Of a DNA stretch of 64,000 nt, positions 1 through 64,000 are shown piece by piece. The DNA comes from Reticulascus tulasneorum (lineage: Eukaryota; Ascomycota; Sordariomycetes; Glomerellales; Reticulascaceae). Position numbers and translations under genes: made by a program. The stretch is from contig LSAX01000012.1 in assembly GCA_001557505.1 (NCBI GenBank), positions 1-64,000 on the forward strand. The letters run 5' to 3'. The notes beneath the pieces are model-generated. The model was not told where the DNA came from. It saw only the letters and a list, made by a program, of their open reading frames with translations, and made no database searches. How positions within the stretch are numbered: the stretch's first letter is position 1; every line of letters starts with the position of its first letter.

Positions 1-76
1 CCCTAACCCTAACCCTAACCCTAACCCTAACCCTAACCCTAACCCTAACCCTAACCCTAACCCTAACCCTAACCCT
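1..76. repeat. Telomere repeat array (CCCTAA)n
   Basis: Twelve perfect CCCTAA units followed by a final CCCT, starting at base 1. Read on the other strand this is TTAGGG, the telomere repeat of most filamentous ascomycetes. The C-rich strand running 5' to 3' into the window places the physical chromosome end to the left, so everything here is subtelomeric. The array may have been longer in the cell, since assemblies usually truncate telomeres. Confidence 0.97.
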
Positions 77-7732: not shown

Positions 7733-7808
7733 TTCTTTGATGGCTAGTCTTGTTGAACTGATTTCATGTTGCTAGGTGATGCCATCTTGATGCACCAAGG
7801 TATTTGAG

Positions 7809-17805: not shown

Positions 17806-19239
17806 CTACAGATTGTGTAAAGCCGAATTCAAGCTGGAAATTCTCTCGAGAAGCTCTTCAAACATTTGACTCACAGTCTCCTCTCCACAAAGTCGTCGAG
17901 CCACGGTTATACCAACCCGTACGTGAAGGCCATCAGGTTCAGGGACTCCTACTATTTCCACGTCATATAGCGGTGCTTCGTCCAGAGATCCTCTATTAAG
18001 ATCAGCATTATACTCGCTGGGCTCGCGTGTTTGAACATCTCCAGAAAAGCCCTCCAGCCGAATTCGTTGATCTTGAAGTGAACTCTCAGCATGTAACGCA
18101 AAGTTGTGATACGCCGTACAGCAACCGTAGCGTGTAGTCGCATCCGACCAATCTGTGCAGTTCTCCTTGAGCTCGTCAAATCCCAAAGTCTCAAAAGGCA
18201 GGCTGTCGACATATTGATCCTGTACCTTGCGGAGCAACTCTTGAAGGCTGACGTCCTTATCTACGCAAACGCGCACAGGCACATCATTAGTACAAGGACC
18301 AACGGTATCCTGGGAGCTGAGCGGTAAACACTGCCGTCCAGATACAACACGACCAAAGAGAACATCTCTTGATCCGGTTTGAGTTGAAAGCACTAGAGCG
18401 CAAGCGGTGGTAAATATTGTTGCCTCTGTGATGCCGTCTGCATTCACCTGGAAAGGGTTCTTAATGAGCTTCTCCACAAACCAGGCGCCACCCAGCCTGA
18501 CTTGTTCTTGGAGAGTAGCGCTAGTGCTTTTCAAGACTGTTATCGATGAACGCTGTAGAACAGAACGCCAGAATTCGTAACCATCTTCGCGACTGTCGAC
18601 CATGTGTTGAACATACCGAGCAAACTTGGGCGCTTTTGGGACATGGTTGCCATTGTAAAAGGCATGAAGAGATCGCACAATTTTCTCGAAGCTCAAGCCA
18701 TCGTACAATGCATGAGACATGCGAAGGACAAGTCGCACGGTTGATGCCCGATTCTTTAAAATGTTAATGCGTAGTAACGATTGTCCTAGCTGGAGAGGCT
18801 CTTGTCGATCCAGATCCCATAACGCACTAGTGGCTCCGGTGACATCTTCCTCGACATTAATAACCTCAATAGGCACTTCAAGATACTCCAGAACCACCTG
18901 ATAGAATACACCGTGAACTGACAAGAACACTGTTCTGAAGATATCGAAATGCTGGACTAGGGCAACACAGGCGCCAGTTAGCCTAGCACAGTCCGAGTCA
19001 GGCGGAAACTCTATAAAGAAAAGCGGCGGAGCACGCGGGTGTCCAGTTGCAGGGTCTTGGAGAAAGACTTGTTGTGTGCGCGTAGCCGGATACACGTCCA
19101 GAAATCTGCCGTGGTGGTGGTTTTCAAGCTGCGGAAGGATCTCATGCTGGACAAAGTTGTGCGGATCTTGAAATGGCAGCAGCTGGAATGGAGCACGGTT
19201 TGCTCTTTTTAAAGCTCGATTGTTCGTATTGTGACTGCC
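17806..19239 (-). other. Terminal condensation-like (ring-closing) domain of the NRPS
   Basis: About 478 residues after the last carrier, opening with [18 protein letters not shown] and [10 protein letters not shown]. The active-site motif is SHALYDGLS (SHxxxDG), where elongation domains have HHxxxDG. Domains of this type cyclise and release the chain in fungal synthetases that lack a thioesterase. This one could close an amide or ester ring, depending on the first unit. Confidence 0.88.
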
Positions 19240-22200
19240 CAGCTGATTAATACGAATTTTGCTAATGAGGTCCAAAGGCGACGGCTGATGGAAGATGTCT
19301 TTGACAGACAGGGATGTATCGAGCCGGCGGCTGATGCGAGCCGCAAGCTTCGTCGCCATGAGCGAGTGTCCACCGAGGTCAAAGAAGTTGTCTGTAATCC
19401 CGACCTCCACTCCGAGCACATCAGCAAACTCCGAGCAGAGCAATAACTCGATCTCGTTGCGTGGGGCTACGCGTGCAGACGTCGACTTGTTGCGTGGCGC
19501 GATCTGGGCCATCCGAACAAGCGCTGTCCGGTCAACTTTGCCATTGGCGTTGACGGGTAGATGATCTAACGCCATGATACGCGCGGGTATCATGTAAGCT
19601 GGGAGTAAGATCTGTAGCTGTTCACGGATCTGTGCCTCGATCCGACGGCTCTGTAGCCGCCGGAGCGGTCGGTTTGTGAGTTGGTTCAATGGTCTTCCAG
19701 ACTCATCAGTTGGGAACCGTAGAAAGACACGTCTTCCTGTTACGACAGGCGGATGACGGTGGAACACAGCATCGAGTGCACCGTTCTGAGACCACTGCCG
19801 CGCCCAGCTAAGCTCTACGCTAAAGCCCATCTCTTGACCGAGTTGTACGAGGTCGGTGGCGGAAAGCGATGGATAGCGACTGGCTGCAGATCGGATTGTC
19901 GGTAACCAGGCTCCAATATCCTGTGTGGTTTGCGCGTCGTTGTCTTCTTTCTCAAGTGACTCGACGATTTGTCTCTCCAAGATGGTCTTCTTATAAGGGA
20001 TGTTGCTGACAGCCACCTCCAGGACATCCGGCGACTTCTGTAGAAGTCGGCGGAGGGCTTGGCTGTCTAACTGGGATGCTCTGAAGTTGACCCAGGCGTC
20101 TGGCTCGATTATATGCACAGGTTGCGCATCAGACAGGTGTATGACAGCCGAATATCGGTATGAGCTGAGCTCATTTGTGGCAGTCATCTGCTTCGGCAGA
20201 ATTTCCACATGTTTAACTCGACCAGATAGCTGAGTTACTAGCCCCGTAAAGAAGGCTGGATCGATAAGTAACTCTTCTTCACGTTCTTCTATTTCTGCCA
20301 TCTTCTGGCGAACCTCATCCTTAGTCGCTTTATCACCTAACGTGAAGAGTGCTCTGCTTGCGAGAAAGTCCTTATTAAGTGCATAAGATCGTATATCGCC
20401 GAAGAATAGACGTTTGACGCCTGGGATTTTGGTAAGAGTATCGATGACGTCTGCTAAGTACTCAGGTGTAGGGAAATATTGTACCACTGAGTTTAGTATG
20501 ACCAAGTCTGGGTGAAGTCCGTCGAGCCGAGCTACGTCTGTTGCTGTACCGATATGTACTTCGGCTTTCCCTGCTAGATATGGGGCAGCCTTGATTACGT
20601 CGTTGACAAAGATAGTGGCCGAACTTGAAGGTTCGAGCCCGACATAACTTTGCAGCCCTTCCCCGAGGTTAAAGAGAACCATACCGGTACCTGTTCCTAT
20701 TTCTAGCACATGGCCTGCCGTCTGGCCGTCTAGGATTGTCTGAATGGTGTCGTCAAGCCACTCCTGCATTTCTACCTTATCAATGGTACTGCCATCGTAC
20801 ATAGATGTCCAGCCCATAAAGTCGCTGCCAACGGCGGATTGGTCGATAGTATTGATGTCTGTATAGGTGCTGGTTTCGAAGTGGTTCCCCCACCCCTCGA
20901 CTTGCCCACTTGCCTCGTTATTTTGGTTAGACTGGTTATCCCGGGCTGCGACAAAAGCGACTAATTCCGGGTCTTGGCCTTCTTCCTTCCGCATGACGAC
21001 AGCTGCATCACGAATGATGTTAGAGCTGAGCATGGCGCGTTCCACCTCAGCCGGCTCGATCCGATGGCCGCGGATCTTGATCTGCTGGTCCATGCGGCCA
21101 AAGAACTCGATCTGGCCGTCTTTTGGTCGGTAGCGTACGCGATCACCCGTCCGGTACCCTCGCACGAGCTGGCCGTCGATGTTGAGCGATATAAATCGGT
21201 CTCGGTCCAACGCTGAGTCTGTATACCCTCGAGCGAGCCCGTCGCCTGTGACGACAAGCTCTCCCATGACGCCAAGAGACACCAGCTGCTGGCGTGGGTC
21301 CATGATAAACGCCCCGGAGTTGCTGACTGCCCGACCAATTGGAACGCCGTTTACAAAAGATTCATGGTCGCCGATATTATATATCGTGCTAAGGATTGCG
21401 TTTTCCGTCGGACCATAGGCGTTATAGACGCCACCCCGTATAAGTGTTTTCGCTTGGACCGCGTCACAACTATCAAACCGATCGCCAGCGGCGAATAGGA
21501 CGTCTAAACAGCCTAGAACGGTTGGCATATCTGCCAGACACCGCTTGATTAGCGATGGCGTAAGCATGGCTGCGCAGACTTGTTCGCGCTCGAAAACAGC
21601 CCCGAGAGCCTTCAAGTCAATGGTGGTAAAATAATCGATACAGACCACTGTTCCTCCGTTTAGAAGCGCGCTATAAATTTCCCATATCGATGCATCGAAG
21701 GCAATGTTCGATAAGTGGGCCACATGAGCGCCTCGTGGCAGTTTAGAGACGACGTTGCTTTGCTTCACGAGTCGTACAATGCTACGGTGCTCGACCATTA
21801 CGCCCTTAGGATAACCTGTAGAGCCAGATGTGAAAATGACGTAGGCGAGGCTCGTTGCAGAAGGGTGCTCGATGTCACCAATATCAACCACTCCATGATG
21901 GTCAAGGATATCGTCAATCCTCATTAGATCTACGTCGGGCATCTGCAGGTCTGGAGTGACGACCTCGCCGCCGAGCAGCACAAGCTTATGTCCAGCAACA
22001 GCCGACAAGATCGCCTTGATGCGAGCTTCGGGAACATTGACATCAAGTGGCAAGTAAGCCAGGTTCGCCTTGAGGATACCAATGAAGGCAACGACTGTCT
22101 GGCATGACCGTGGAGCCAGCACGCCGACAAGCGTCTCGGCCATCATGCCTCGCCGGCGAAGCCAGCCAGCCATTTCGTCTGATTTTTGGTCCAGCTGAGC

Positions 22201-25200: not shown

Positions 25201-28200
25201 CTTATGTCCAGCAACAGCCGACAAGATCGCCTTGATGCGAGCTTCGGGAACATTGACATCAAGTGGCAAGTAAGCCAGGTTCGCCTTGAGGATACCAATG
25301 AAGGCAACAATAGTCTGGCATGACCGTGGAGCCAGCACGCCGACAAGCGTCTCGGCCATCATGCCTCGCCGGCGAAGCCAGTCAGCCATTTCGTCCGATT
25401 TTCTATCCAGCTGAGCATAGGTCATCTGCTCCGAGGCATCGGTCACAGCTATCGTATCCGGCAATGCGGCCACCTGCGCGCGGAAGATATCAACGACACT
25501 CGACTCGCGCGGATAGTCAGTTGTCTCGATGTCGAGCAGGTCCATGCTGCGAAGCTCCGATATTCCGTCGGTGAGCGGCATCGACGCGATCGGCAAGTCT
25601 GGTTCTTCGAGCCCACGACGTAAGATCTCTTGGAATACGGCGACCATGGCCTGGATAGTCTCAAGCTCGAACAAGTCTGTAGCAAAGAGAACGTTGCCAA
25701 CCAGCTTCCCGGCGTCTTGGAACAGATGGAACTCGACATCAAATCGCGTGGTCACGGCGGTGGGTAGCAGCTCGCCTGTCAGGCCCTCTAACTGAATTTT
25801 CCCGAGATCTTTTTGAGAGTGTACGGCGAACATGAGCTGCACCAGCGGATTCCGGGACGTGTCTCTTGATCCAGGAAGGAGGGCCGATACGATGCGCTCG
25901 AACGGCACGTCTTGGTTAGAGAATGCGGCTGTTGTCGTAGACCGAGTCTGCTGTACTAATCCGACAAATGTGTCATCTTCCCCGACTGTAATCCGCATAC
26001 ACTGAGTATTGACAAAAAATCCGATTATATTTTCCAGTTCTGGCCGGTTACGGTTAGCAATAGGTGTGCCGAGAATCGCATCTTCAGCACCTGTGAGACG
26101 ATAGTGTGTAGCGCGGAAGACCGCCAGCAATGCCACGAACGGCGTTATCTGATGAGCCCGACAGAACGCTTGGAGACTCTCGTGCACCGAGTCACCGATT
26201 ACCAGCTGGACCACGCCAGCCTGACTTGAGAGCACGGCTGGCCGAGGCCGATCTGTAAGAAGCTCCGCAGGAGAGCTGCTGGCCAGTTGGCTGGTCCAGT
26301 ACTCGAGCTGGCGTTGGTGCTCGGCTACCTGTTCGTCTTCCTTCTGCCACAAAGCAAAGTCGCGGTACTGGATTGGGAGCGGAGACACGTGCGATAGAGG
26401 GTCGTGACCTCGGAGCACCGCAGTGTAGAACAATCCCAGCTCTTGGCGTAGGATATCTATGGACCAACCATCGGAAATAATATGGTGCATGACAATAGAG
26501 AGGATGTGATCATCTTGTCCTAGGTGCAGAAGTGAAACCCTCCACCCAGGCTCAGATGTCAAATCGAAAGGACTCGTCTGCTCAATCTTTAGCTGCTCTA
26601 AATAGTTGGCATTTGGCTTGTCCAGGACGTTGAGAACTCTGAGCTCCTTGTTGCCGCTCGCTTGGATGATTTGCATGCCTACACCATCTTGGTCCTCAAA
26701 TCTTGTGCGCAAGGTCTCGTGGCGCTGTTCCAGGACGTGCAGGGCAGTAGCGAGCGCGTCGACGTGAAGCGATCCACGGAAGCGCACTGCGAGCGGCATG
26801 AGATACCATGTGGCTCCGAGGTTCAGCTGCTCTAAGAACCACAGGCGGCCCTGTGCAAATGACTGCTCGATAGGCCCCGAGTACGCTGACGGACGGATTG
26901 GATTATGCGGGGCCGAGCCTCGAAGGATAGTGGAACCGAGATCCCCAAGCACCGGATAGTCGAAGATATCTTTGACAGATACTCGGGTATCAAGCCGGCG
27001 GCTGATGCGAGCCGCAAGCTTCGTCGCCATGAGCGAGTGTCCACCGAGGTCAAAGAAGTTGTCTGTAATCCCGACCTCCACTCCAAGCACATCAGCAAAC
27101 TCTGAGCAAAGTAAGACCTCGATCTCGTTGCGTGGGGCTACGCGTGCGGACGTTGATATATTGTGTGGCGCGATCTGGGCCATCCGAACAAGCGCTGTCC
27201 GGTCAACCTTGCCATTGGCGTTGACTGGTAGTTGATCTAACGCCATGATACGCGCGGGTATCATGTAAGCTGGGAGCAGGATCTGTAGCTGTTCACGGAT
27301 CTGTGCTTCGATCCGACGGCTCTGTAGCCGCCGGAGCGGTCGGTTTGTGAGTTGGTTCAATGGTCTTCCAGGCTCATCAGTCGGAAATTGTAATAAGACA
27401 CGTCTCCTTGTTCCGACAGGCGGATAACGGTGGAACACAGCATCGAGTGCACCGTTCTGAGACCACTGCCGCGCCCAGCTAAGCTCTACGCTAAAGCCCA
27501 TCTCTTGACCGAGTTGTACGAGGTCGGTGGCGGAAAGCGATGGATAGCGACTGGCTGCAGATCGGATTGTCGGTAACCAGGCTCCGCTGTCCAGTGTGGC
27601 TAGCGCGTCGTCTTCGTCGCCGTCATCAAGTGACTCGACGATTTGTCTCTCCAAGATGGTCTTCTTATAAGGGATGTTGCTGACAGCGACCTCCAGGACA
27701 TCCGGCGACTTCTGTAGAAGTCGGCGGAGGGCTTGGCTGTCTAACTGGGATGCTCCGAAGTTAACCCAGACGTCTGGCTCGATTATATGTATGGGTTGTG
27801 TATCGCCCACGTGTATAACAGCTGAATATCGGTATGAGCTGAGCTCATTTGTAGCAGTCATCTGCTTCGGCAGAATTTCCACATGTTTAACTCGACCAGA
27901 TAGCCGAGTTACTAGCCCCGTAAAGAAGGCTGGATCGACGAGCAACTCCTCTTCGCGTTCTTCCATGTCTGCCATCTTCTGGCGAATCTCATTCTTGGTC
28001 GCTGTATCACCTAATGCATAGAGTGCTCTGCTCGCGAGAAAGTCTTTGTTAAGTGCGTAAGATCGTATGTCGCCGAAGAATAGACGTTTGACGCCTGGTA
28101 TTTGGGTAAGAGTATCCACGACGTCTGCTAAGTACTCAGGTGTAGGGAAATATTGTACCACTGAGTTCAGTATGACCAAGTCTGGGCGGAGTCCGTCGAG

Positions 28201-31200
28201 CTGAGCTACGTCTGTTGCTGTACCGATATGTACTACGGCTTTCCCTGCTAGATATGGGGTAAAATGGACGGTCTTGTTGACGAAGTCGGTGGCCGAACTT
28301 GAAGGTTCGAGCCCGACATAACTTTGAAGCCCTTCCCCGAGGTTAAAGAGAACCATACCGGTACCTGTTCCTATTTCTAGCACATGGCCTGCCGCCTGAC
28401 CGTCAAGGATTGTCTGAATGGTGTCGTCAAGCCACTCCTGCATTTCTACCTTATCAATGGTACTACCATCGTACATAGATGTCCAGCCCATAAAGTCACT
28501 ACCAACGGCGGATTGGTCGATAGTATTGATGTCTGTGTAGGTGCTGGTTTCGAAGTGATTCCCCCACCCCTCGACTTGGCTGCTTGCCTCGTTTTCTTGG
28601 GTAGACTGGTCATCCCGGGCTGCGACAAAAGCGACTAATTCCGGGTCATGGTCTTCTTCCTTCCGCACGACGATGGCCGCATCATAGATGATACTACAGG
28701 TGAGCATGGCATGCTCCACCTCGGCCGGCTCGATCCGGTGGCCGCGGATCTTAATCTGCTGGTCCATGCGGCCAAAGAACTCGATCTGGCCGTCTTGTGG
28801 TCGGCAACGTACACGATCACCTGTCCGGTACGCTCGCACGAGCTGGCCGTCAATCATTACCTGAACAAAACGGTTTTGGTCTAACTCTGAGTCCGAATAC
28901 CCTCGAGCGAGCCCATCGCCTGTGACGACAAGCTCTCCCATGACGCCAAGAGACACCAGCTGCTGGCGTGGGTCCATGACAAAAGCCCCGGAGTTGCTGA
29001 CTGCCCGACCAATTGGAACCCCGTTTGCGAAGGATTCACGGCCGTTAATATTATATATCGTGCTAAGGGTTGTATTCTCCGTCGGACCGTAAGCGTTATA
29101 AACCCCAGCCTGTACAAGTGTTTTCGCCTGGACTGCGTCACAACTATCAAACCGATCGCCAGCGGCGAATAGGACGTCTAAACAGCCTAGAACAGTTGGC
29201 ATATCTGCCAGACACCGCTTGATTAGCGATGGTGTAAGCATGGCTGCGCAGACTTGTTCGCGCTCGAAAACAGCCCCGAGAGCCTTCAAGTCAATGGTGG
29301 TAAAATAATCGATGCAGACCACTGTTCCTCCGTTTAGAAGCGCGCTATAAATTTCCCATATCGATGCATCGAAGGCAATGTTCGATAAGTGGGCCACATG
29401 AGCGCCTCGTGGCAGTTTGGAGACGACGTTGCTTTGCTTCACGAGTCGTATAATGCCACGGTGCTCGACCATTACGCCCTTAGGATAACCTGTAGAGCCA
29501 GATGTGAAAATGACGTAGGCGAGGCTCGTTGCAGAAGGGTGCTCGATGTCACCAATATCAACCACTCCATGATGGTCAAGGATATCATCAATCCTCATTA
29601 GATCTACGTCGGGCATCTGCAGGTCTGGAGTGACGACCTCGCCGCCGAGCAGCACAAGCTTTTGTCCAGCAACAGCCGACAAGATCGCCTTGATGCGAGC
29701 TTCGGGAACATTGACATCAAGTGGCAAGTAAGCCAGGTTCGCCTTGAGGATACCAATGAAGGCAACAATAGTCTGGCATGACCGTGTAGCCAGCACGCCG
29801 ACAAGCGTCTCGGCCATCATGCCTCGCCGGTGAAGCCAGTCAGCCAATTCGTCCGATTTTCTATCCAGCTGAGCATAGGTCATCTGCTCCGAGGCATCGG
29901 TCACAGCTATCGTATCCGGGAATGCGGCCACCTGCGCGCGGAAGATATCAACGACACTCGACTCGCGTGGATAGTCAGTTGTCTCGATGTCGAGCAGGTC
30001 CATGCTGCGAAGCTCCGATATCCCGTCGGTGAGCGGCATCGACGCGATCAGCATGTCTGGTTCTTCGAGCCCACGACGTAAGATCTCTTGGAATACGGCG
30101 ACCATGGCCTGGATAGTCTCAAGCTCGAACAAGTCTGTAGCAAAGAGAACGTTGCCAACCAGCCTCCCGGCGTCTTGGAACAGATGGAATTCGACATCGA
30201 ACCGAGTAGTCACGGCAGTAGGTATCAGCTCGCCTGTCACGCCCTCCAGCCGTATTCTCCCGAGATCCTTTTGAGAGTGTACGGCAAACATGAGCTGCAC
30301 CAGCGGATTTCGGGACGTGTCTCTTGATCCTGGAAGGAGGGCCGATACGATGCGCTCGAACGGCACATCTTGGTTGGCGAATGCGGCTGTTGTCGTAGAC
30401 CGAGTCTGCTGTACTAATCCGACAAATGTGTCATCTTCCCCGACTGTAATCCGCATACACTGAGTATTGACAAAAAATCCGATTATATTTTCCAGTTCTG
30501 GCCGGTTACGATTGGCAATAGGTGTGCCGACAGTCGCATCTTCAGCACCCGTGAGACGGTAGTGCGTAGCGCGGAATGCCGCCAACAGTGTCACGAATGG
30601 CGTTACCTGATTAACCCGACAGAATGCCTGGAGATCCTTGTACATTGAGCCATCGATCGCCAGCTGCACCACGCCAGCCTGACTTGAGAGCACGGCTGGC
30701 CGAGGCCGGTCTGTAAGAAGCTCGGCGGGAGAGCTGTCGGCGAGCTGGCCGGTCCAGTACTCGAGCTGGCGTTGGTGCTCGGCTACCTGTTCCTCTTGCT
30801 TCTGCCAGATGGCAAAGTCGCGGTACTGGATCGGGAGCGGCGAGACGCTTGACAAAGGATCCTGACCTCGGAGCGCCGCAGCGTAGAACTGGCCCAGTTC
30901 TTTGCGTAGAACGTCAATTGACCAGCCGTCGGAAATGATGTGGTGCATGACAATGGAAAGGATATAATCATCATGTCCTAAGCGTAGAAGCGACACCCGC
31001 CACCCCGGCTCAGATGTCAGGTCGAAACAAGTTGTCTGCTCATCCTGTAACTGCTCTAAATAGTTGGCATTTGGCTCGTCCAGGACGTCGAGAACGTTGA
31101 GCTTCTTGGTGCCGCTCGCTTGTATGATTTGCACGCCCACACCGTCTTGCTCATCAAATCTTGTGCGCAGTGTCTCGTGGCGTTGCTCAAGAGCGTGCAG

Positions 31201-34200
31201 AGCAGTAGCCAGCGCGTCGACGTGAAGCGGTCCACGGAAGCGCACTGCGAGTGGCATGAGATACCACGTGGCTCCGAGGTTCAGCTGCTCTAAGAACCAC
31301 AGGCGACCCTGTGCAAACGACTGCTCTACTGGTCCAGAATACACTGACGGTCTGATGGGATTATGCGGGGCCGAGCCTCGCATGATGGTAGCGGCAAGAT
31401 CGGCAAGTATCGGCTGGTCGAAAACATCTTTGACAGATACGCGGGTGTCGAGTCGACGGCTGATGCGAGCCGCAAGCTTTGTCGCCATGAGCGAGTGTCC
31501 GCCAAGGTCGAAGAAGTTATCATTGATTCCAACCTCCACTCCGAGCACATCAGCAAACTCCGAGCAGAGCAACACTTCGATCTCGTTGCGTGGGGCTACG
31601 CGTGCAGACGTCGACTTGTTGCGTGGCGCGATCTGGGCCATCCGAACAAGTGCTGTCCGGTCAACTTTGCCATTGGCGTTGACGGGAAGTTGGTCCAAGG
31701 CAATGATGCGCGCGGGTATCATGTAAGCTGGGAGCAGGATCTGTAGCTGTTCACGGATCTGTGCCTCGATCCGACGGTTCTGTAAACGCCGGAGGGGTCG
31801 GTTTGTGAGATGGTGTAATGGTCTTCCAGGCTCATCAGTCGGAAATTGTAATAAGACACGTCTCCTTGTTCCGACAGGCGGATAACGGTGGAACACAGCA
31901 TCGAGTGCACCGTTCTGAGACCACTGCCGCGCCCAGCTAAGCTCTACGCTAAAGCCCATCTCTTGACCGAGTTGTACGAGGTCGGTGGCGGAAAACGACG
32001 TAGAGCGACTGGCTGCAGCTCGGATTGTCGGTAACCAGGCTCCGCTGTCCAGTGTGGCTAGTGTGTCGTCTTCGTCACCGTCATCAAGTGACTTGACCAT
32101 TTGTCTCCCCAAAATGGTCTTCTTATAAGGGATGTTGCTGACAGCGACCTTCAGGACATCCGGCGACTTCTGTAGAAGTTGGCGGAGGGCTTGGCTGTCT
32201 AACTGGGATGCTCCGAAGTTAACCCAGACGTCTGGCTCGATTATATGTATGGGTTGTGTATCGCACAGGTGTATAACAGCTGAATATCGGTATGAGCTGA
32301 GCTCATTTGTAGCAGTCATCTGCTTCGGCAGAATTTCCACATGTTTAACTCGACCAGATAGCCGAGTTACTAGCCCCGTAAAGAAGGCTGGATCGACGAG
32401 CAACTCCTCTTCGCGTTCTTCCATGTCTGCCATCTTCTGGCGAATCTCATTCTTGGTCGCTGTATCACCTAATGCATAGAGTGCTCTGCTCGCGAGAAAG
32501 TCTTTGTTAAGTGCGTAAGATCGTATGTCGCCGAAGAATAGACGTTTGACGCCTGGTATTTGGGTAAGAGTATCCACGACGTCTGCTAAGTACTCAGGTG
32601 TAGGGAAATATTGTACCACTGAGTTCAGTATGACCAAGTCTGGGCGGAGTCCGTCGAGCTGAGCTACGTCTGTTGCTGTACCGATATGCACTTCAGCTTT
32701 CCCTGCTAGATATGGGGCAGCCTTGATTGCGTCGTTGACAAAGATAGTGGCCGAACTTGAAGGTTCAAGACCGACATAACTTTGAAGCCCTTCCCCGAGG
32801 TTAAAGAGAACCATACCAGTACCTGTCCCTATTTCTAGCACATGGCCTGCCGCCTGGCCGTCTAGGACTGTCTGAATGGTGTCGTCAAGCCACTCCTGCA
32901 TTTCGGCCTTATCAATGGTACTACCATCGTACATAGATGTCCAGCCCATAAAGTCGCTGCCAACGGCGGATTGGTCGATGGTATTGATATCTGTGTAGGT
33001 GCTGGTTTCGAAGTGGTTCCCCCACCCCTCGACTTGCCCACTTGCCTCGTTATTTTGGTTAGACCGGTCATCCCGGGCTGCGACAAAAGCGACTAATTCC
33101 GGGTCATGGTCTTCTTCCTTGCGCACGACGATGGCCGCATCATGGATGATACTGCAGGTGAGCATGGCATGCTCCACCTCGGCCGGCTCGATCCGGTGGC
33201 CACGGATCTTGATCTGCTGGTCCATGCGGCCAAAGAACTCGATCTGGCCGTCTTGTGGTCGGCAGCGCACGCGATCACCTGTTCGGTACGCTCGCACGAG
33301 CTGGCCGTCAATCCTTACCTGAACAAAACGGTTTTGGTCTAACTCTGAGTCCGAATACCCTCGAGCGAGCCCGTCGCCTATGACGACAAGCTCTCCCATG
33401 ACGCCAAGAGACACCAGCTGCTGACGTTGGTCCATGACAAAAGCCCCGGAGTTGCTGACTGCCCGACCAATTGGAACCCCGTTTGCGAAGGATTCACGGC
33501 CGTTAATATCATATATCGTGCTAAGGGTTGTATTCTCCGTCGGACCGTAAGCGTTATAGACGTGAGCCCGTACAAGTGTTTTCGCCTGTACCGCGTCATG
33601 ACTATCAAACCGATCGCCAGCAGCGAATAGGACTTCTAAACGACTTAGTATGGTTGGCATATCTGCCAGACATCTCTTGATTAGCGATGGCGTAAGCATG
33701 GCTGCGCAGACCTGTTCTCGCTCGAAAACAGCCCCGAGAGCCTTCATGTCGATGGTGGTAAAATAATCGATGCAGACTACTGTTCCTCCGTTTAGAAGCG
33801 CACTGTAGATTTCCCATATCGATGCGTCAAAGGCAATGTTCGATAAGTGGGCCACATGAGCGCCTCGTGGTAGTTTGGAGACAACATTGCTTTGCTTCAC
33901 GAGTCGTATAATGCCACGGTGCTCGACCATTACGCCCTTAGGCCGCCCTGTAGAACCAGATGTGAACGTGACGTAGGCGAGGCTTGTTGCTGAAGGTCGA
34001 TGGGCGGTGTTTGCAACGTTAGCCATTTCACGATGGCCAAGGGCATCGCCGATACACACCAGCTCTGCGTCCGGCAATTGGACGTCCGGAGTAGCTACGT
34101 CGCCGCCAACCAGCACAAGCTTATGTCCGGCAACAGCAGACAAGATCGTCTTGATACGAGCTGCGGGAACATTTACATCAAGCGGTAAATATGCCAGGTT

Positions 34201-46200: not shown

Positions 46201-49200
46201 CTCGACGTCCGGTGTCTCGAGATCCAGAGTAGCTACGTCGCCAAGCAGCACAAGCTTATTTCCAGCAACAGCCGACAAGATCGTTTTGATGCGAGCTGCG
46301 GGAACGTTGACATCCAGCGGTAAGTATGCTAGATTCGCTTTGAGGATGCCCATAAATGCAACAATAGTCTGGCATGACCGAGGAGCCAGCACGCCGACAA
46401 GTGTCTCGGCTTTCATGCCTCGCCGGCGAAGCCAGCCAGCCATCTCGTCCGATTGTCGGTCCAGCTGAGCATATGTCAGCTCCGTCGACGAGTCCGTCAC
46501 AGCTATTGCATCTGGGAACGCGGCCACCTGATCGCGGAAGACATCAACCACACTCGACTCGCGCGGATAGTTAGTTCTCTCGATGTCGAGCAGGCCCATG
46601 CTGCGAAGCTCCGATACCCCGTCGGTGAGCGGCATCGACGCGATCGGCAAGTCGGGCTCATCGAGTCCACGACGTAGGATCTCTTGGAAGACGGCGACCA
46701 TGGCCTGGATGGTTTCGACCTCGAACAAGTCTGTAGCAAAGATGACGTTGCCGACCAGCCTTCCCGCCTCCTGGAAAAAGTGGAACTCAACATCAAACCG
46801 AGTGGCTAAGGCAGTTGGTATGGGCTCTCCATTGACGCCCTCTAGGTAGATTCTTCCAAGATCCTTTTGAGAGTGCACGGCAAACATGAGCTGTACTAGC
46901 GGGTTTCGCGACGTGTCTCTCGATCCAGGAAGTAAGGCTGATACGATACGCTCGAACGGAACGTCTTGGTTGGCAAATGCGGTTGTTGTCGTAGACCGAG
47001 TCTGCTGTACTAATCCGTCAAATGTGTCATCTTCCCCAACGGTGATCCGCATACACTGAGTATTGACAAAGAATCCGATCATATCTTCTAGCTCTGGTCG
47101 GTTACGGTTGGCAATAGGCGTGCCAACGGTGGCATCCTCCGCACCCGTAAGACGATAGTGAGCAGCGCGGAACGCCGTGAGCAGCGTGACGAATGATGTT
47201 ACCTGACGAGCTCGGCAGAAAGCTCGGAGACTTTGGTACCCCGAGCCCTCGATCACCAGCTGCACCACGCCGGCTTGACTTGAGAGCACGGCTGGCCGAG
47301 GCCGGTCTGTAAGAAGCTCGGCGGGAGAGCTGTCGGCGAGCTGGTTGGTCCAGTACTCAAGCTGGCGTTGGTGCTCGGCTACCTGTTCGTCTTGCTTCTG
47401 CCACAAGGCAAAGTCACGGTACTGGATCGGGAGCGGTGCCACGCTTGATAGAGGGTCTTGACCTCGGAGCGCCGCAGCATAGAACTGACCCAGTTCTTGA
47501 CGCAGAACGTCAATTGACCAGCCGTCAGAGATGATGTGGTGCATTACAATAGAGAGGATATGATCATCAAGCCCAAGACGAAGAAGTAATACTCTCCACC
47601 CAGGCTCAGACTTCAAATCAAAAGGAGTCGTCTGCTCCAGCTGCAACCGTTCTGTATGGTTGCCATTCTTCTCGGCCGTCACATTGATCACCCTGAGCTC
47701 TTTGGGGCCGGTCGCCTGGATGACCTGCATGCCCACCCCATCTCGCTCTATAAACCTTGTGCGCAGGGTCTCGTGGCGCTGCTCCAGAGCGTACAGGGCA
47801 GTAGCCAGCGCGTCGACATGAAGCGGTCCACGGAAGCGCACTGCGAGTGGCATGAGATACCACGTGGCTCCGAGGTTGAGCTGGTCCAAGAACCACAAGC
47901 GGCCCTGCGCAAACGACTGCTCTACAGGTCCAGAGTACACCGACGGATGGATTGATTTATGTGGGTCCGAACCTCGCATGATGGTAGCTGCAAGATCAGC
48001 AAGTATTGGCTGGTCGAAGATGTCTTTAACAGAGATATAGGAATCAAGTCGGCGGCTGATGCGAGCCGCAAGCTTCGTCGCCATGAGCGAGTGTCCACCG
48101 AGGTCGAAGAAGTTATCTGTGACGCCGACCTCGACGCCTAGTAGATCAGCAAATTCCTCGCATAACGAAATTTCAATCTCATTACGTGGAGCCACACGTA
48201 TAGACACCATTTCATGTAATGGTGCGATCTGGGCCTTCCGAGCAAGCTCTCGCCGGTCGACCTTGCCATTGGCATTGAGCGGCATTTTGTCCAGCGCCAC
48301 AATCCGCGCCGGGATCATATAAGATGGGAGCATAGTACGGAGTCGATCGCGGATTTCTTTCTCCAGACGATTCTCTAATCCATTAACACCATCGTTATCA
48401 ACCCATTCCTGGTTAGTAGAACTACCTCCCCGAACTAGGATGAACCCAACCATTTCTGGTTCTTGGTCTTCTTCCTTCCAAACGACAACGGCCGCATCAC
48501 GGACAATATCGCAGCTGAGCATGGCATGTTCCACTTCGGCCGGCTCGATCCGGTGGCCACGGATCTTGATCTGCTGGTCCATGCGGCCAAAGAACTCGAT
48601 CTGGCCGTCATTTGGCCGGTAGCGTACGCGATCACCCGTCCGGTACGCTCGCACCAGCTTGCCGTCGATGTTTACCTGAATGAAGCGATCTTGTTCCAAG
48701 ACCGAATCCGCGTACCCTCGAGCAAGTCCGTCCCCAATGACGACAAGCTCTCCCATGACGCCGAGAGAGACAACTTGTTGGCGCCTGTCCATGACAAACA
48801 CGCCGGAGTTACTGACAGCTCGACCGATAGGGACGCCGTTCGCAAATGATTCGTACTTGTTAATGCTATAGAGAGTGCAAATGTGAGTCTCGGTAGGGCC
48901 ATAAGCATTGTAAACACCGTTTTGCACAAGCGATCGTGCATAGATCGCGTCACGACCATCAAAGCGGTCTCCAGCAACGAACAGAACGTCTAGACCTGCG
49001 AGAGCCGCAGGCATGGTCGATAAACATTGCTTGAGCAATGCAGGCGCAAGCATGGCCGCGCGGATATTCTCTCGGATAAATACAGCCTCGAGAGCTTTGC
49101 TGTCCAAGGTTGTGAAAAAGTCAATGCATACCAGCGTTCCTCCGTTTAGGATCGTTGCCAGTATTTCCCAAACCGACACATCGAATGCAAGATTCGTCAC

Positions 49201-55200: not shown

Positions 55201-58200
55201 CGGGTCCGTATATCCACGTGCAAGACCGTCACCAGTTACAACGAGCTCGCCCATAACGCCGAGTGGAACAAGACGCTGCTGCGAATCCATAACATAAACC
55301 CCTGAGTTTTTAATGACACGGCCGACAGGAACGCCGTTAGCATACGAAATGTTAGGAGTTATGCGAAAGGAAGTCGTCAAGATCGAGTTCTCGCTTGGTC
55401 CATAACCGTTAAACACAGCCATTTTTACCAAGTCTCCAGCTTTTGCTGCATCACTTGGCGGAAAGCGATCTCCGAGAACATAAAGTGCATCAAGCTGACC
55501 TAGAGCTTGGGGGGCTTGGTCGAGAACTCTGGTAAGTAAGGCTGGTGTAATCATACCGACACGGACGCCCTCCTGCTTAAAGATGCTTGTAAGCTGTACT
55601 GTATCTAACACTGTCATAGTATCGATGCAGACCAACTTATGGCCGTTGAGTAGCGCAGTACATATTTCAAATATTGACGGGTCAAAAGCGAGATTTGTCA
55701 TATGGGCTACAGGTCCATATGCCGGCCGTTGTTTGACAACGTTGACTAAACTGCGATGTGGTACCATAATTCCCTTCGGACGACCTGTTGAACCAGAGGT
55801 GAAGATGACGTACGCGAGGCTTATAGCTGTAGGTTGCTGGGCGGTGTCTGTAAGTTTAACTAATTCATGGTGGCCAAGGGTATCGCCGATATATACCAGC
55901 TCCACGTCTGGCATCTCGATAGCCGGAGTAGCTACGTCGCCACCGAGCAACACAAGCTTACGTCCATCAACAGCCGACAAGATCGCCCCGATGCGAGCTG
56001 CGGGAACGTTGACATCGAGCGGTAAATATGCCAAGTTCGCCTTAAGAATCCCCATGAAGGCAACGACTGTCTGGCATGATCGCGGAGCCAGCACGCCAAC
56101 AAGCGTCTCGGCCTCCATCCCACGCCGGCGAAGCCAGCCAGCCATCTCGTCTGATTGTTGGTCAAGCTGAGCATAGGTCATCTGCTCTGACGAGTCCGTC
56201 ACAGCTATCATATCCGGGCAGGCGGCCACCTGATCGCGGAAGACATCAACCACACTCGACTCGCGCGGATAGTTAGTTCTCTCGATGTCGAGCAGACCCA
56301 TGCTGCGAAGCTCCGCTATCCCGTCGGTGAGCGGCATCGACGTGATCGATGTTTCGGGCTTATTGAGCCCACGATGTAGGATCTCTTGGAAGACGGCGAC
56401 CATGGTCTGGATGGTCTCAAGCTCGAACAAGTCTGCTGCAAAGACGACGTTGCCGACTAGCCTCCCGGCCTCCTGGAATAGATGGAACTCAACATCGAAC
56501 CGAGTGGTCGCAGCAGTGGGTATTTGCTCCCCTGCGAGGCCCTCTAACTGAATTTTCCCGAGATCCTGTTGAGAGTGCACGGCAAACATGAGCTGCACCA
56601 GTGGATTTCGCGATGTGTCCCTTGATCCAGGAAGGAGGGCCGATACGATGCGCTCGAATGGCACATCTTGGTTGGCAAATGCAGTTGTTGTCGTAGACCG
56701 AGTCTGACGCACCAATCCCTCAAACGTGTCATCTTCGCCGACGGTAATCCGCATACACTGAGTATTAACAAAGAATCCGATCATGCTTTCTAGCTCTGGT
56801 CGGTTTCGGTTGGCAATAGGCGTTCCAATGGTGGCATCTTCCGCACCCGTGAGACGATAATGTGTGGCGCGGAATGCCGCGAGCAGGGCCACGAACGATG
56901 TTACCTGATGAGCTCGGCAGAACGCTCGGAGACTTTTGTACAGCGAGCCCTCTATCACCAGCTGCACCACGCCGGCATCACTTGAGAGCACGGCTGGACG
57001 AGCCTGGTCTGTAAGAAGCTCGGCGGGAGAGCTGTCGGCGAGCTGTTTGGTCCAGAACTCAAGCTGGCGTTGGTGCTCGGCTACCTGTTCGTCTTGTTTT
57101 TGCCACAAGGCAAAGTCGCGGTACTGGATCGGGAGCGGGGCCACGCTTGCTAGAGGGTCCTGGCCTCGGAGCGCCGCAGCATAGAATAGTCCCAGTTCTT
57201 CACGCAGAACATCAATTGACCAGCCATCGGAAATGATATGGTGCATGACAATAGAGAGGATGTGATCATCAGGCCCAAGACGAAGGAGCGATACCCTCCA
57301 CCCAGGCTCTGACGTTAGATCGAAAGCAGTCGTCTGAACATGCTGTAACTGCTCTAAATAGTTAGGAGTTTGCTCGCCCAGTACGTTGAGAACTCTGAGC
57401 TGATTGGTGCCGCTGGCTTGGATGATTTGCATTCCCACACCATCCTGCTCCTCAAATCTCGTGCGCAGGGTTTCGTGGCGTTGCTCCAGAGCGTGCAGGG
57501 CAGTAACGAGCGCATCGACATGAAGGGGTCCGCGCAAGCGCACTGCGAGCGGCATGAGATACCATGTTGCTCCAAGGTTTAGCTGGTCTAAGAACCATAA
57601 GCGCCCTTGCGCAAACGACTGCTCGATTGGCCCTGAGTACGCAGTTGAGCGGATTTCACTATGCGGATTTGAGCCTCGCAGGATTGTGGCCGCAAGGTCG
57701 GCGAGTACAGGCTGGTCAAAGACGTCTTTGACGGACACATGGGTATCGAGCCGGCGGCTGATTCGAGCCGCAAGCTTCGTCGCCATGAGCGAGTGGCCGC
57801 CAAGGTCGAAGAAGTTGTCGGTGATGCCAACCTTGACGCCGAGCATATCAGCAAATTCCTCGCATAGTGAAATTTCGATCTCGTTACGTGGGACCACGTG
57901 TACAGACGCCACCTCACGCATCGGCGCGGTCTGAGCCTTCCGAGCAAGCTCTCGCCGGTCGACCTTGCCATTGGCATTGAGCGGCATTTTGTCCAGCGCC
58001 ACAATCCGCGCCGGGATCATATAAGATGGGAGCATAGTACGTAGTCGATCGCGGATTACTTTCTCCACATGACTCTCTAATCCGTTGACACCATCGTTAT
58101 CAACCCATTCCTGGTTAGTAGAACTATCTCCCCGAACTAAGATGAACCCAACCATTTCTGGTTCTTGGTCTTCTTCCTTCCGAAGGATGACAGCAGCGTC

Positions 58201-61200: not shown

Positions 61201-64000
61201 TGGCATCTCGTCCAGGGCGATGATCCGCGAGGGAACCATATAAGATGGCAGAACGGCCTGTAACATAGTTCGTAAGTTGGCCTCCATCGTAAGATCCAGT
61301 TGTACCATCTGGACTTCCCGATCCTTTTGCCACTTCCGTTGCACATATTCTCTCGCGTGGTCGATGTTAGTGCTTTCTCTGATTGTGATAAAACTGACGA
61401 GCTCCATATCCTCCTGCACAGTTTCGTCTTGTCTTAATAAAGTAATCGCATCTCTCACAGCGTTATGCCGCACTAAGACACGCTCTACCTCTGCTGGCTC
61501 AACGCGGTGGCCTCGAACCTTTACTTGAACGTCCATACGGCCATAGAACTCTAAGTACCTGTCCTTCGGCCGATACCGGACGCGATCGCCGGTTCTAAAA
61601 GCCCTCACAGACTCTCCATTTATAGTTACCTGCACAAACCGATCATGGTCAAGCTCCGGGTCCGTATATCCACGTGCAAGACCGTCACCAGTTACAACGA
61701 GCTCGCCCATAACGCCGAGTGGAACAAGACGCTGCTGCGAATCCATAACATAAACCCCTGAGTTTTTAATGACACGGCCGACAGGAACGCCGTTAGCATA
61801 CGAAATGTTAGGAGTTATGCGAAAGGAAGTCGTCAAGATCGAGTTCTCGCTTGGTCCATAACCGTTAAACACAGCCATTTTTACCAAGTCTCCAGCTTTT
61901 GCTGCATCACTTGGCGGAAAGCGATCTCCGAGAACATAAAGTGCATCAAGCTGACCTAGAGCTTGGGGGGCTTGGTCGAGGACTCTGGTAAGTAAGGCTG
62001 GTGTAATCATACCGACACGGACGCCCTCCTGCTTAAAGATGCTTGTAAGCTGTACTGTATCTAACACTGTCATAGTGTCGATACAGACCAACTTATGGCC
62101 GTTGAGTAGCGCGGTACACATTTCAAATATTGACGGGTCAAAAGCGAGATTTGTCATGTGGGCTACAGGTCCATATGCCGGCCGTTGTTTGACGACGTTG
62201 ACTAAACTGCGATGTGGTACCATAATTCCCTTCGGACGACCTGTTGAACCAGAGGTGAAGATGACGTACGCGAGGCTTGTAGCTGTAGGTTGCTGGGCGG
62301 TGTCTGCAAGTTTAACTAATTCATGGTGGCCAAGGGTATCGCCGATATATACCAGCTCCACGTCTGGCATCTCGATAGCCGGAGTAGCTACGTCGCCACC
62401 GAGCAACACAAGCTTACGTCCATTAACAGCCGACAAGATCGCCTCGATGCGAGCTGCGGGAACATTGACATCGAGCGGTAAATATGCCAAGTTCGCCTTG
62501 AGGATTCCGATGAAGGCAACGACCGTACGGCATGACCGCGGAGCCAGCACGCCAACAAGCGTCTCGGCCTCCATCCCACGCCGGCGAAGCCAACCAGCCA
62601 TCTCGTCTGATTGTTGGTCAAGCTGAGCATAGGTCATCTGCTCTGACGAGTCCGTAACAGCTATCATATCCGGATATACGGCCATCTGATCGCGGAAGAC
62701 GTCAACCACGCTTGACTCACGCGGGTAGTCAGTTCCCTCGATGTCGAGCAGGCCCATACTACGAAGATCTGTTATCCCGTCGGTGAGCGGCATCGACGTG
62801 ATCGGTGTTTCGGGCTTATCGAGCCCACGACGTAGGATCTCTTGGAAGACGGCGATCATGGCCTGGATGGTCTTGAGCTCGAACAAGTCTGCAGCGAAGA
62901 CGACGTTGCCAACTAGCCTCCCGGCCTCTTGGAACAGATGGAACTCAACATCGAACCGAGTGGTCGCAGCAGTGGGTATTTGCTCCCCTGCGAGGCCTTC
63001 CAGCAGGATTCTCCCGAGATCCTGTTGAGAGTGCACGGCAAACATGAGCTGCACCAGCGGGTTTCGTGACGTGTCCCTAGATCCTGGGATAACAGCAGAC
63101 ACGATGCGCTCGAATGGCACATCTTGGTTAGCGAATGCGGTTGTTGTCGTAGACCGAGTCTGACGCACCAATCCCTCAAATGTGTCATCTTCGCCGACGG
63201 TAATCCGCATACACTGAGTATTGACGAAGAATCCTATCATATTTTCTAGCTCTGGTCGGTTACGGTTGGCAATAGGTGTTCCAATGGTGGCATCTTCCGC
63301 ACCCGTGAGACGATAATGTGTGGCGCGGAATGCCGCGAGCAGGGCCACGAACGATGTTACCTGATGAGCTCGGCAGAACGCTCGGAGACTCTCATAAATC
63401 GAGCCCTCGATCACCAGCTGCACCACGCCAGCCTGACTAGAGAGCACGGTCGGCCGGGCGTGGTCTGTAAGAAGCTCGGCGGGAGAGCTGTCGGCGAGCT
63501 GGTTGGTCCAGTACTCAAGCTGGCGTTGGTGCTCGGCTACCTGTTCGTCTTGCTTCTGCCACAAGGCAAAGTCACGGTACTGGATCGGGAGCGGGGCCAC
63601 GCTTGACAGAGGGTCCTGGCCTCGGAGCGCCATAGCATAGAACTGGCCCAACTCCTGCCGCAGAATATCGATTGACCAGCCATCAGAAACGATGTGGTGC
63701 ATGACGATGGAGAGGATATGGTCGTCGTCCCCGAGCCGTAGTAGTGACACCCTCCATCCTGGCTCGGATGTCAGATCGAACGGAGTTGTCTGCTCCTGCT
63801 CTAGCGCCTGGATGTAGCTGCCATCCTGACCAGTAGGCACATCGATCACTCTGAGCTGCTTTGGGACGCTTGTTTGGATGGCTTGCATGCCAACACCATC
63901 TTGCTCCATAAACCTTGTGCGCAGGGTCTCGTGGCGTTCCTCCAGAGCGTGCAGGGCAGTAACAAGCGCATCGACATGAAGGGGTCCGCGCAAGCGCACT
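17806..64000 (-). CDS. Giant cyclopeptide/depsipeptide NRPS, at least 12 modules, 5' end outside window
   Basis: One uninterrupted minus-strand frame of 15,397 codons enters at the window edge and ends at 17806. It is intronless over 46 kb, and the apparent first Met is just an internal GTG (Val) at the edge. Visible order: W1 C-A-T, W2 C-A-T, W3 C-A-T, W4 C-A-T, W5 C-A-T, W6 C-A-M-T, W7 C-A-T, W8 C-A-M-T, W9 C-A-M-T, W10 C-A-M-T, W11 C-A-T, W12 C-A-M-T, terminal C. All twelve elongation C domains keep HHI(V/I)SDG, all carriers keep LGGHSL, and all five methyltransferases keep the SAM motif LEIGTGTG. Epimerase and thioesterase domains are absent, so the residues should be L unless supplied as D units, and release is by the terminal C domain. 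Module identity to one another is extreme, like cyclosporin synthetase, but the module count and methylation pattern differ from it. At least one carrier or module must precede W1, giving a product of 13 or more units. The protein is cytosolic, in the enniatin/PF1022/cyclosporin class of fungal synthetases. Confidence 0.97.
19240..23672 (-). other. NRPS module W12 (C-A-M-T), last elongation module
   Basis: Aliphatic class, pocket DAWMFAAIL (Ile at 330, as in W2), with a methyltransferase at about 19700-20900. Its carrier (core at about 19345-19380) hands the finished chain to the terminal condensation domain. Confidence 0.9.
23673..26888 (-). other. NRPS module W11 (C-A-T)
   Basis: Aliphatic class, pocket DAWMFAATL, without a methyltransferase. 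Its A domain is nearly identical to those of W10 and W12, so the difference at this position should be the methylation state, not a different residue class. Confidence 0.9.
26889..31346 (-). other. NRPS module W10 (C-A-M-T)
   Basis: Aliphatic class, pocket DAWMFAATL, with a methyltransferase at about 27370-28590. Predicted to add the same N-methyl aliphatic residue as W9, directly after it. Its methyltransferase has a local replacement just after the SAM motif ([14 protein letters not shown]) relative to the other four. Confidence 0.9.
31347..35808 (-). other. NRPS module W9 (C-A-M-T)
   Basis: Aliphatic class, pocket DAWMFAATL, with a methyltransferase at about 31830-33040. Predicted N-methyl branched aliphatic residue. 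The carrier and the flanking start of the next C domain are almost identical to those following W8. Confidence 0.9.
35809..40265 (-). other. NRPS module W8 (C-A-M-T)
   Basis: Same A-domain class as W6 ([15 protein letters not shown], pocket DAWMLSVVF) with a methyltransferase at about 36290-37510. W6 and W8 differ from each other at only scattered positions, so they should install the same N-methyl residue on either side of W7. Confidence 0.9.
40266..43485 (-). other. NRPS module W7 (C-A-T)
   Basis: Aliphatic class, pocket DAWMFAATL. No methyltransferase: the A8-A10 linker is short and carries an NQDWVDN-like segment shared with the other unmethylated modules. Position 330 is Thr, as in W9, W10 and W11, whereas W2 and W12 have Ile there. 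Confidence 0.9.
43486..47940 (-). other. NRPS module W6 (C-A-M-T)
   Basis: Contains an N-methyltransferase at about 43960-45190 between A8 and A10 ([15 protein letters not shown] at its start, LEIGTGTGM for SAM binding, [13 protein letters not shown] after it). The A domain has an unusual A5 motif, NVCGHTEN, where NAYGPTEN is normal, and a pocket read as DAWMLSVVF. Shares this class with W8 only. The substrate is unassigned and should be N-methylated. Confidence 0.9.
47941..51160 (-). other. NRPS module W5 (C-A-T)
   Basis: The most divergent of the aliphatic-type A domains: [23 protein letters not shown], and TETHICT with one residue fewer than the others after the A5 motif. The pocket reads DVWMFAAIC; the final I-C pair is that of the phenylalanine pocket of GrsA, so an aromatic residue is possible but weakly supported. 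No methyltransferase. The carrier is nearly identical to that of W4. Confidence 0.88.
51161..54385 (-). other. NRPS module W4 (C-A-T)
   Basis: HHIISDGWS in C. The pocket reads DVWMFAAIL: the first half (FDVSMWE) is its own, while positions 278-331 lie within a tract identical to W2. Likely an aliphatic residue, related to but perhaps not the same as W2. No methyltransferase. Confidence 0.9.
51452..52284 (-). repeat. 833-bp tract identical to W2 (copy in W4)
   Basis: Partner of 57935-58767. The first mismatches are at 51451 and 52285. Confidence 0.9.
54386..57645 (-). other. NRPS module W3 (C-A-T)
   Basis: Same A-domain class as W1 ([15 protein letters not shown], pocket DPFMYLGIL) and nearly identical to it at DNA level, so the same substrate should be used at both positions. 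The A9-A10 linker carries an unusual acidic insert (DDPEDDDVK). The carrier reads [11 protein letters not shown], a conservative D-to-N change ahead of the phosphopantetheine Ser. No methyltransferase. Confidence 0.9.
54938..55524 (-). repeat. 587-bp tract identical to W1 (copy in W3)
   Basis: Partner of 61394-61980. Near-identity continues to about 55850. Confidence 0.85.
57646..60865 (-). other. NRPS module W2 (C-A-T)
   Basis: HHIVSDGWS in C. A-domain pocket read by eye as DAWMFAAIL, which resembles my recollection of the valine pockets in cyclosporin synthetase, so a branched aliphatic residue is likely. No methyltransferase. Its carrier domain is followed directly by W3. Its A tail and second pocket half share an 833-bp identical tract with W4. 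Confidence 0.9.
57935..58767 (-). repeat. 833-bp tract identical to W4 (copy in W2)
   Basis: Bases 57935-58767 match 51452-52284 without a mismatch by line-by-line reading (offset 6483). The tract covers the A-domain C-terminal subdomain and pocket positions 278-331. The flanks diverge abruptly on both sides, as expected of gene conversion. Confidence 0.9.
60866..64000 (-). other. NRPS module W1 (C-A-T), 5' edge cut
   Basis: The C domain lacks only its first residues at the window edge and keeps HHIVSDGWS. The A domain belongs to a distinct class: [11 protein letters not shown] at the A3 loop, FDPSIFE and NGYGPSEN instead of the usual NAYGPTEN. My by-eye pocket reading (GrsA positions 235, 236, 239, 278, 299, 301, 322, 330, 331) is DPFMYLGIL. 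There is no methyltransferase; the linker before A10 is a short charged segment. The substrate is not assigned, but it should be the same as in W3. Confidence 0.9.
61394..61980 (-). repeat. 587-bp tract identical to W3 (copy in W1)
   Basis: Identical to 54938-55524 (offset 6456), with only sparse differences for several hundred further bases toward 62300. It covers pocket positions 278-331 and the A7-A8 region of the distinctive NGYGPSEN class. Confidence 0.85.

Follow-up and report, generated by a model that had tools for sequence, protein, structure and literature searches.

What does the giant nonribosomal peptide synthetase (NRPS) encoded at one end of contig LSAX01000012.1 of Reticulascus tulasneorum make, and how is it related to the synthetases beside it? 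The stretch analyzed (the window, 64,000 nucleotides) is C4:1-64000, C4 being our label for this contig in a genome of 42.8 Mb and 35 contigs. A sequence-only reading of the window had described a minus-strand giant NRPS open at the window edge, and our scan for open reading frames (ORFs) agrees: the single ORF of at least 250 amino acids (aa) is a minus-strand frame at 17806-63999, 15,397 aa long and open at the edge. We consider it highly probable that this synthetase, S1, is a hydroxy-acid-started cyclodepsipeptide synthetase in a seven-member subtelomeric family, of which another member, S5, most likely makes a peptolide of the SDZ 214-103 type.

Fourteen modules in one frame

Joined with the neighboring stretches, the whole S1 frame occupies C4:17809-70620 on the minus strand, 17,604 codons without introns; in the stop-to-stop frame a Met is met first at codon 15 (C4:70578), which gives a protein of 17,590 aa. 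The protein had been expected to extend upstream, and two modules and an N-terminal C-like domain lie beyond the window. Domain calls, made with Pfam and with profiles built from S1's own domains, gave 14 A domains, 14 carriers, 13 elongation C domains, and five methyltransferases, the last in modules 8, 10, 11, 12, and 14 between the A core and T, with a C-like stretch at the N terminus and a 478-aa C-like tail after the last carrier. The at least 12 modules and five N-methyltransferases of the sequence-only reading fit this count, 12 of the A domains being visible in the window. Its methylated positions 6, 8, 9, 10, and 12 of the visible part are the modules just named, offset by two because the visible part starts within the module 3 C domain. 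The terminal domain that it took to be ring-closing corresponds to the C-like tail, for which cyclization is a putative role.

17806-64000, minus strand: visible part of S1, from the interior of the module 3 C domain to the stop codon at 17806-17808
44326-45166, minus strand: N-methyltransferase insert of module 8 (residues 8485-8764 of the stop-to-stop frame), S-adenosylmethionine (SAM) motif LEIGTGTG
36646-37486, minus strand: N-methyltransferase insert of module 10 (residues 11045-11324), profile and motif
32188-33028, minus strand: N-methyltransferase insert of module 11 (residues 12531-12810), profile and motif
27730-28570, minus strand: N-methyltransferase insert of module 12 (residues 14017-14296), profile and motif
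20056-20896, minus strand: N-methyltransferase insert of module 14 (residues 16575-16854), profile and motif
17809-19242, minus strand: terminal C-like (CT) domain, 478 aa, motif SHALYDG, with a putative role in macrocyclization

The frame is not a chance one, since all 13 elongation C domains keep HHxxxDG and all 14 carriers the GG[HD]S serine motif over 17,604 codons; the SAM motif is likewise present in five of five methyltransferases. Neither a thioesterase nor a reductase appeared among the Pfam matches of the last 5,000 residues, and neither an epimerase nor any other additional C-like domain was found by the profiles, so any D unit in the product would have to arrive ready-made. Peptaibol synthetases lack methyltransferases and have a terminal reductase and a polyketide synthase (PKS)-type starter; this type was set aside for S1 on its five methyltransferases, its CT domain, and the lack of a reductase match in the last 5,000 residues.

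The visible part had also been judged about as large as cyclosporin synthetase (SimA), which an excerpt of PMC6131563 puts at 15,281 aa. The same reading could name no synthetase with this module order and methylation pattern. Among the best 120 of 525 protein matches there was no characterized full-length match and nothing longer than 7,989 aa, under a length rule that admitted candidates up to 15,575 aa. A sequence search of a structure library returned general A-domain relatives only, and no Rfam families were found in the window.

A probable hydroxy-acid starter

The N-terminal unit of S1 (minus its first 14 codons) is 52.6% identical to enniatin synthetase over 1,083 positions (E 0.0), 51.5% to bassianolide synthetase over 1,067, and 49.0% to beauvericin synthetase over 1,088. 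The N-terminal C-like domain, A1 with Gly-235, and T1 of these enzymes align in all five of the synthetases S1 to S5, at 49-54% over about 1,025-1,104 positions. Column 235 of A1 is Gly, not the amino-binding Asp, in S1 to S5 (5/5). A database search with the first 1,100 residues of S4 gave 1,567 matches, and in the 12 relatives picked from the best 120 of these, A1 has Gly-235 (12/12) and the second A domain has Asp (12/12). Each of the seven synthetases has a single domain of the A1 type (72-100% to S1 A1), and the next genome match is at 42%. According to PMC3688495, module 1 of the enniatin, beauvericin, and bassianolide synthetases codes for D-hydroxyisovalerate (D-Hiv). The A1 code is GALYVVGSI in the bassianolide enzyme and in three of four enniatin/beauvericin enzymes (GALYIVGSF in the fourth); S5 is close to it with GALFIAGTI, and S1 has GAVFVCATA.

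The sequence features that mark a fungal N-methylated cyclodepsipeptide synthetase with an esyn1-type starter are found in S1: starter homology, no Asp-235, inserted methyltransferases, and a putative cyclizing CT domain with no thioesterase match in the last 5,000 residues; a cyclic depsipeptide product, the remaining mark of the group, is predicted. In its anatomy, S1 adds a 14-module enzyme to the N-methylating cyclodepsipeptide synthetases that start with a hydroxy acid. It would work as a single-chain, linear, non-iterative fungal enzyme. Module 1, of the enniatin-synthetase module-1 type, would load a 2-hydroxy acid, a chemistry supported by its relatives, and 13 elongation modules of the cyclosporin/aureobasidin type would add amino acids whose identity is predicted from their codes. 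Five residues would be N-methylated on the carrier by the methyltransferases inserted in A domains, and the CT domain would join the chain end to the starter hydroxyl, closing a putative 14-unit ring with one ester.

Predicted product of S1

The nine-residue codes of the elongation A domains fall into few classes:

modules 2, 4, and 14: DAWLFAAIL
modules 3 and 5: DPFLYLGIL
module 6: DVWLFAAIL
module 7: DVWLFAA-I
modules 8 and 10: DAWFLSVVF
modules 9, 11, 12, and 13: DAWLFAATL
61657-62712, minus strand: A domain of module 3, DPFLYLGIL, predicted Pro/pipecolate
55201-56256, minus strand: A domain of module 5, 97% identical to that of module 3
45481-46554, minus strand: A domain of module 8, DAWFLSVVF, 74% to S5 module 6
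37801-38883, minus strand: A domain of module 10, same class as module 8

Seven copies of the DPF class occur genome-wide at 76% or more, the next match being at 69%. The six that were read all lack a methyltransferase, as probably does the seventh (S7 module 2), judging from its spacing and the lack of a PF08242 match. That the class is never methylated suggests Pro or pipecolate, which cannot be N-methylated in this way. The DAWFLSVVF class shares 74% identity with S5 module 6, which falls at the Thr position of the SDZ 214-103 peptolide. The S1 product is likely a 14-unit cyclic depsipeptide with one hydroxy acid, 13 amino acids, and five N-methyls, and its order may be read as hydroxy acid-Val/Ile-Pro/Pip-Val/Ile-Pro/Pip-Ala?-?-MeThr-Val/Ile-MeThr-MeVal/Ile-MeVal/Ile-Val/Ile-MeVal/Ile (Pip, pipecolate).

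Some genes between the synthetases could bear on supply or export. They include a pyrroline-5-carboxylate reductase-like gene between S3 and S4 (C4:192840-193712, minus) that could supply Pro/pipecolate modules, an FAD-dependent oxidoreductase of the DAO family between S1 and S2 (C4:75036-75908, minus; a pipecolate/sarcosine oxidase type is a guess), a 2-isopropylmalate synthase-like gene between S2 and S3 (C4:123307-124521, plus), perhaps for precursor supply, and exons of an ABC transporter, a possible exporter, between S3 and S4 (C4:184696-188394, plus).

Six paralogues on the same contig

A C-domain search of the genome yielded 145 candidates; every one of the 75 that were scored belongs to a giant frame on C4. 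Seven synthetases with the A1 type make up the array:

C4:17809-70620, minus strand: S1, 14 modules, 5 methyltransferases
C4:80999-120043: S2, 10 modules, 4 methyltransferases
C4:130698-172046: S3, 10 modules, 6 methyltransferases
C4:222080-255577: S4, 8 modules, 5 methyltransferases, frame split by one in-frame TAG
C4:311041-355746, plus strand: S5, 11 modules, 6 methyltransferases
C4 about 400.8-469k, plus strand: S6, 22,758 aa, 16 modules, at least 12 methyltransferases
C4 about 490-564k, minus strand: S7, 24,626 aa, 18 modules, at least 11 methyltransferases
Window 1-75 (end approximate), plus strand: telomeric CCCTAA repeats, the window beginning at a chromosome end

S1 to S5 were read directly (53 A domains, 26 methyltransferases). 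S6 and S7 were mapped by domain matches, using A-domain searches and PF08242 matches that agree with the distances between C domains, about 3.2 or 4.5 kb. The PF08242 search recovered 25 of the 26 directly read methyltransferases, missing the divergent one of S2 module 5, so the counts of 12 and 11 for S6 and S7 are lower bounds. The array totals 87 A domains and 49 methyltransferases. In S1, S2, S3, and S5, all 41 elongation C domains retain HHxxxDG and the four frames are open throughout. By domain content and sequence kinship, the seven synthetases are a paralogous family: all have the same starter type, but module number (8 to 18), the pattern of methylation, and the classes of A domain vary. 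What is unusual in the finding is the seven-member array, whose synthetases reach 18 modules.

Other genes share this region. Two giant NRPS frames of another type (10,248 and 11,406 aa; 37-42% to S1 A1) lie at C4 about 638-666k (minus) and 694-726k (plus), with a PKS near 672k. A two-exon cytochrome P450 gene sits near the telomere (window 3019-4112, plus). There are two NACHT (NLR-like) genes (C4:204196-209302 and 216794-220589, plus); after the first comes a frame whose WD40 repeats are highly alike. Near the synthetases, recurrent ORFs at C4:128394, 181594, and 258972 (plus) have a coiled-coil-like stretch that is similar among them, the one at C4:128394 having no Pfam match. Alike translated stretches at window 15475-16663 and C4:120359-121528 (plus), downstream of S1 and upstream of S2, are perhaps duplicated flanking sequence.

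S5 as a probable peptolide synthetase

S5 has 11 modules, with methyltransferases, read directly, in modules 2, 4, 5, 7, 8, and 10. We take SDZ 214-103 to be [Thr2, Leu5, D-Hiv8, Leu10]-cyclosporin; read from D-Hiv, this structure has as many units as S5 has modules, agrees with its starter, and predicts methylation at exactly the six modules named. S5 modules 2, 3, and 10 have one and the same code (Leu, Leu, Leu expected), that of module 4 differs from them (Val expected), that of module 7 is unlike the others read (Gly expected), and that of module 11 is unlike the Leu type (Ala expected). Beside S5 lie four further genes:

C4:308656: ketopantoate-reductase-type gene (ApbA_C), best of 5 in the genome
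C4:357122-361867: PKS with methyltransferase (PKS match 357122-357927, methyltransferase match at 361622)
C4:366881: P450, family match
C4:370061: class IV aminotransferase, 54.4 bits

In Tolypocladium inflatum, SimG (PKS), SimI (P450), and SimJ (aminotransferase) make Bmt, as stated in an excerpt of PMC6168864. A second PKS with methyltransferase, between S6 and S7 (C4:471-477k, minus), possibly belongs to a second Bmt-type pathway.

For the polymerase gene RPA2, the best 120 of 2,939 matches suggest Glomerellales and no sequenced species of the collection searched: the closest named is Colletotrichum plurivorum (87%), with metagenome proteins at 85-86%, Sodiomyces at 84%, Verticillium at 83-84%, and Drechmeria, Thyridium, and Daldinia at 83%; the top-scoring row is a Verticillium longisporum protein at 74%. 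Reticulascaceae, which includes Cylindrotrichum, is a family of Glomerellales, and a passage of PMC3688495 states that Cylindrotrichum makes a cyclosporin-related compound. A reference title in PMC2613160 names the peptolide SDZ 214-103 synthetase. Open-licence literature yielded no structure, gene, or genome for SDZ 214-103, Cylindrotrichum, or Reticulascaceae with nonribosomal peptides, and no published account of the S1-S7 locus. S5 most likely makes a cyclosporin-like immunosuppressant peptolide of the SDZ 214-103 type, judging from its module number, methylation pattern, starter type, and neighboring genes.

Alternative explanations

Several points weigh against this interpretation of S1 and S5. 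The substrate assignments draw on code classes and on the SDZ 214-103 structure, and a search for one Leu code in print found nothing; S5 modules 8 (DAWLFGAVM) and 9 (DAWLLGAVL) deviate slightly from the Leu code, a small point. The S1 hydroxy acid may be other than D-Hiv, as GAVFVCATA is unlike the D-Hiv-type GALYVVGSI. The PKS, reductase, P450, and aminotransferase near S5 are known as family matches only, and the aminotransferase ranks fifth of six genome matches by score. Unlike the cyclosporin cluster, C4 carries no cyclophilin gene (0 of 17 genome matches).

It is unlikely that S1 and most of its sister synthetases are silent or decaying copies, left as recombination debris of one active peptolide gene. 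The in-frame TAG in S4, A-domain relics with stops at C4:77913, 198558, 780229, and 815255-823557, and an N-terminal relic in the window (5597-7771) would suit such decay, but S1, S2, S3, and S5 are open end to end with 41 of 41 HHxxxDG motifs, and S6 and S7 come out of the genome search as unbroken frames of 22,758 and 24,626 aa. We find it about as unlikely that S1 is a petriellin-type synthetase proper with one module skipped or silent, giving a 13-unit ring like petriellin A. In its favor, S1 combines a hydroxy-acid module with 13 modules for amino acids and has five methyltransferases, yet there is one unit too many and all S1 modules look intact, and a petriellin A synthetase was set aside on the extra unit. 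It is very improbable that S1 makes an all-amino-acid cyclic tetradecapeptide like the verrucamides of Myrothecium verrucaria. These share the unit number and have several N-methyls, a candidate NRPS for them is proposed in an excerpt of PMC9258550, and three of the four verrucamides have a rotation in which modules 3/5 and modules 8/10, the two same-code pairs tested, each fall on equal residues. The S1 starter A domain, however, is of the hydroxy-acid type, while the verrucamides are listed as amino acids only, and when the four compounds were set against S1 in 14 rotations, no more than 5 of its 11 same-code module pairs fell on equal residues (residue identity compared). A verrucamide synthetase was rejected on these two grounds.

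Probable exchange within the array

In S1 to S5, the nearest relative of a C domain lies within the same synthetase in 40 of 48 cases (label shuffles: mean 9.2, highest 23), and that of a methyltransferase in 20 of 25 (mean 4.3, highest 13), the 26th, which lies at the S4 break, being left out. Relatedness is not taken into account in these shuffles. For elongation A domains, the nearest relative is within the same synthetase in 34 of 48 and has the same nine-residue code in 28 of the 33 where the code recurs. S3 module 5 is a mosaic: its residues 601-800 are 86-95% identical to S2 and 47-69% to S3 siblings, and its residues 1101-1300 are 96-98% identical to S3 module 3 and 59-68% to S2. Within-gene kinship of C domains and methyltransferases, code-matched kinship of A domains, and this mosaic support concerted evolution within genes with exchange of A regions between genes. 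SimA-type A-domain fragments, most with stops, lie at C4:77913, 198558, 581684, 780229, and 815255-823557, and may reflect modules arising and decaying within this subtelomere. A relic of a synthetase start (window 5597-7771, minus) has a C-like N terminus, a carrier, and two in-frame stops, with no A-domain core among its Pfam matches.

A broader proposal, to which we give slightly less than even credence, is that the subtelomere is a natural combinatorial library of seven cyclic-peptolide synthetases (8 to 18 modules), shaped by module duplication, homogenization of C domains and methyltransferases within genes, and A exchange between them. It would yield SDZ 214-103 and a number of larger, undescribed rings, among them one of 16 units with 12 N-methyls and one of 18 units with 11. 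One or more additional Bmt-type residues would also be made (S4; the second PKS between S6 and S7).

The value of cyclosporin-type peptolides lies in their heavy N-methylation, through which large rings can enter cells. To our knowledge, the SDZ 214-103 synthetase has been studied as an enzyme and never sequenced; if S5 is that synthetase, a locus for this cyclosporin analogue is now available, beside six paralogues with a common starter type. The array would show natural re-programming, with C domains and methyltransferases resembling same-gene neighbors and A domains resembling same-code domains, and would make A-domain swap rules in fungal NRPSs directly testable. S6 (16 modules, at least 12 methyltransferases) and S7 (18 modules, 24,626 codons) would rank among the largest single-chain synthetases. 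A Trichoderma peptaibol synthetase has about 20,900 aa. The largest reported in an excerpt of PMC6131563 has 16,367 aa.

Comparison with known systems

SimA of T. inflatum is, like S1, a single giant protein with C-A-(M)-T modules and CT release. S5 also has 11 modules, with a PKS, P450, and aminotransferase beside it as for Bmt (PMC6168864, in part). SimA starts with D-Ala, whereas S1 to S5 have a hydroxy-acid-type A domain, and it methylates module 3, where S5 has no methyltransferase. Excerpts differ on the SimA methyltransferases, which are in modules 2, 3, 4, 5, 8, and 10 in PMC3688495 and number seven in PMC2613160. S1 has 14 modules and another methylation pattern; cyclosporin synthetase proper was rejected for S1 on module number and for S5 on its starter. 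The likeness of S5 to the SDZ 214-103 synthetase of Cylindrotrichum oligospermum is one of product structure, not gene sequence, and concerns S5, not S1. Set against the long, linear enzymes of the S1 family, the enniatin, beauvericin, and bassianolide synthetases have about 3,100-3,200 aa and use their two modules iteratively.

Aureobasidin A has nine units, as against a predicted 14 for S1 and 18 for S7. Its synthetase, Aba1, resembles the S1 family by description, with a hydroxy-acid starter followed by duplicated simA-clade modules (PMC3688495, in part). The nearest compound found is petriellin A, which has one hydroxy acid, five N-methyls, and more than 12 units, as predicted for S1; we know of no petriellin A synthetase sequence. 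It consists of one hydroxy acid and 12 amino acids with five N-methyls, so that at the level of products 13 units stand against the 14 predicted for S1.
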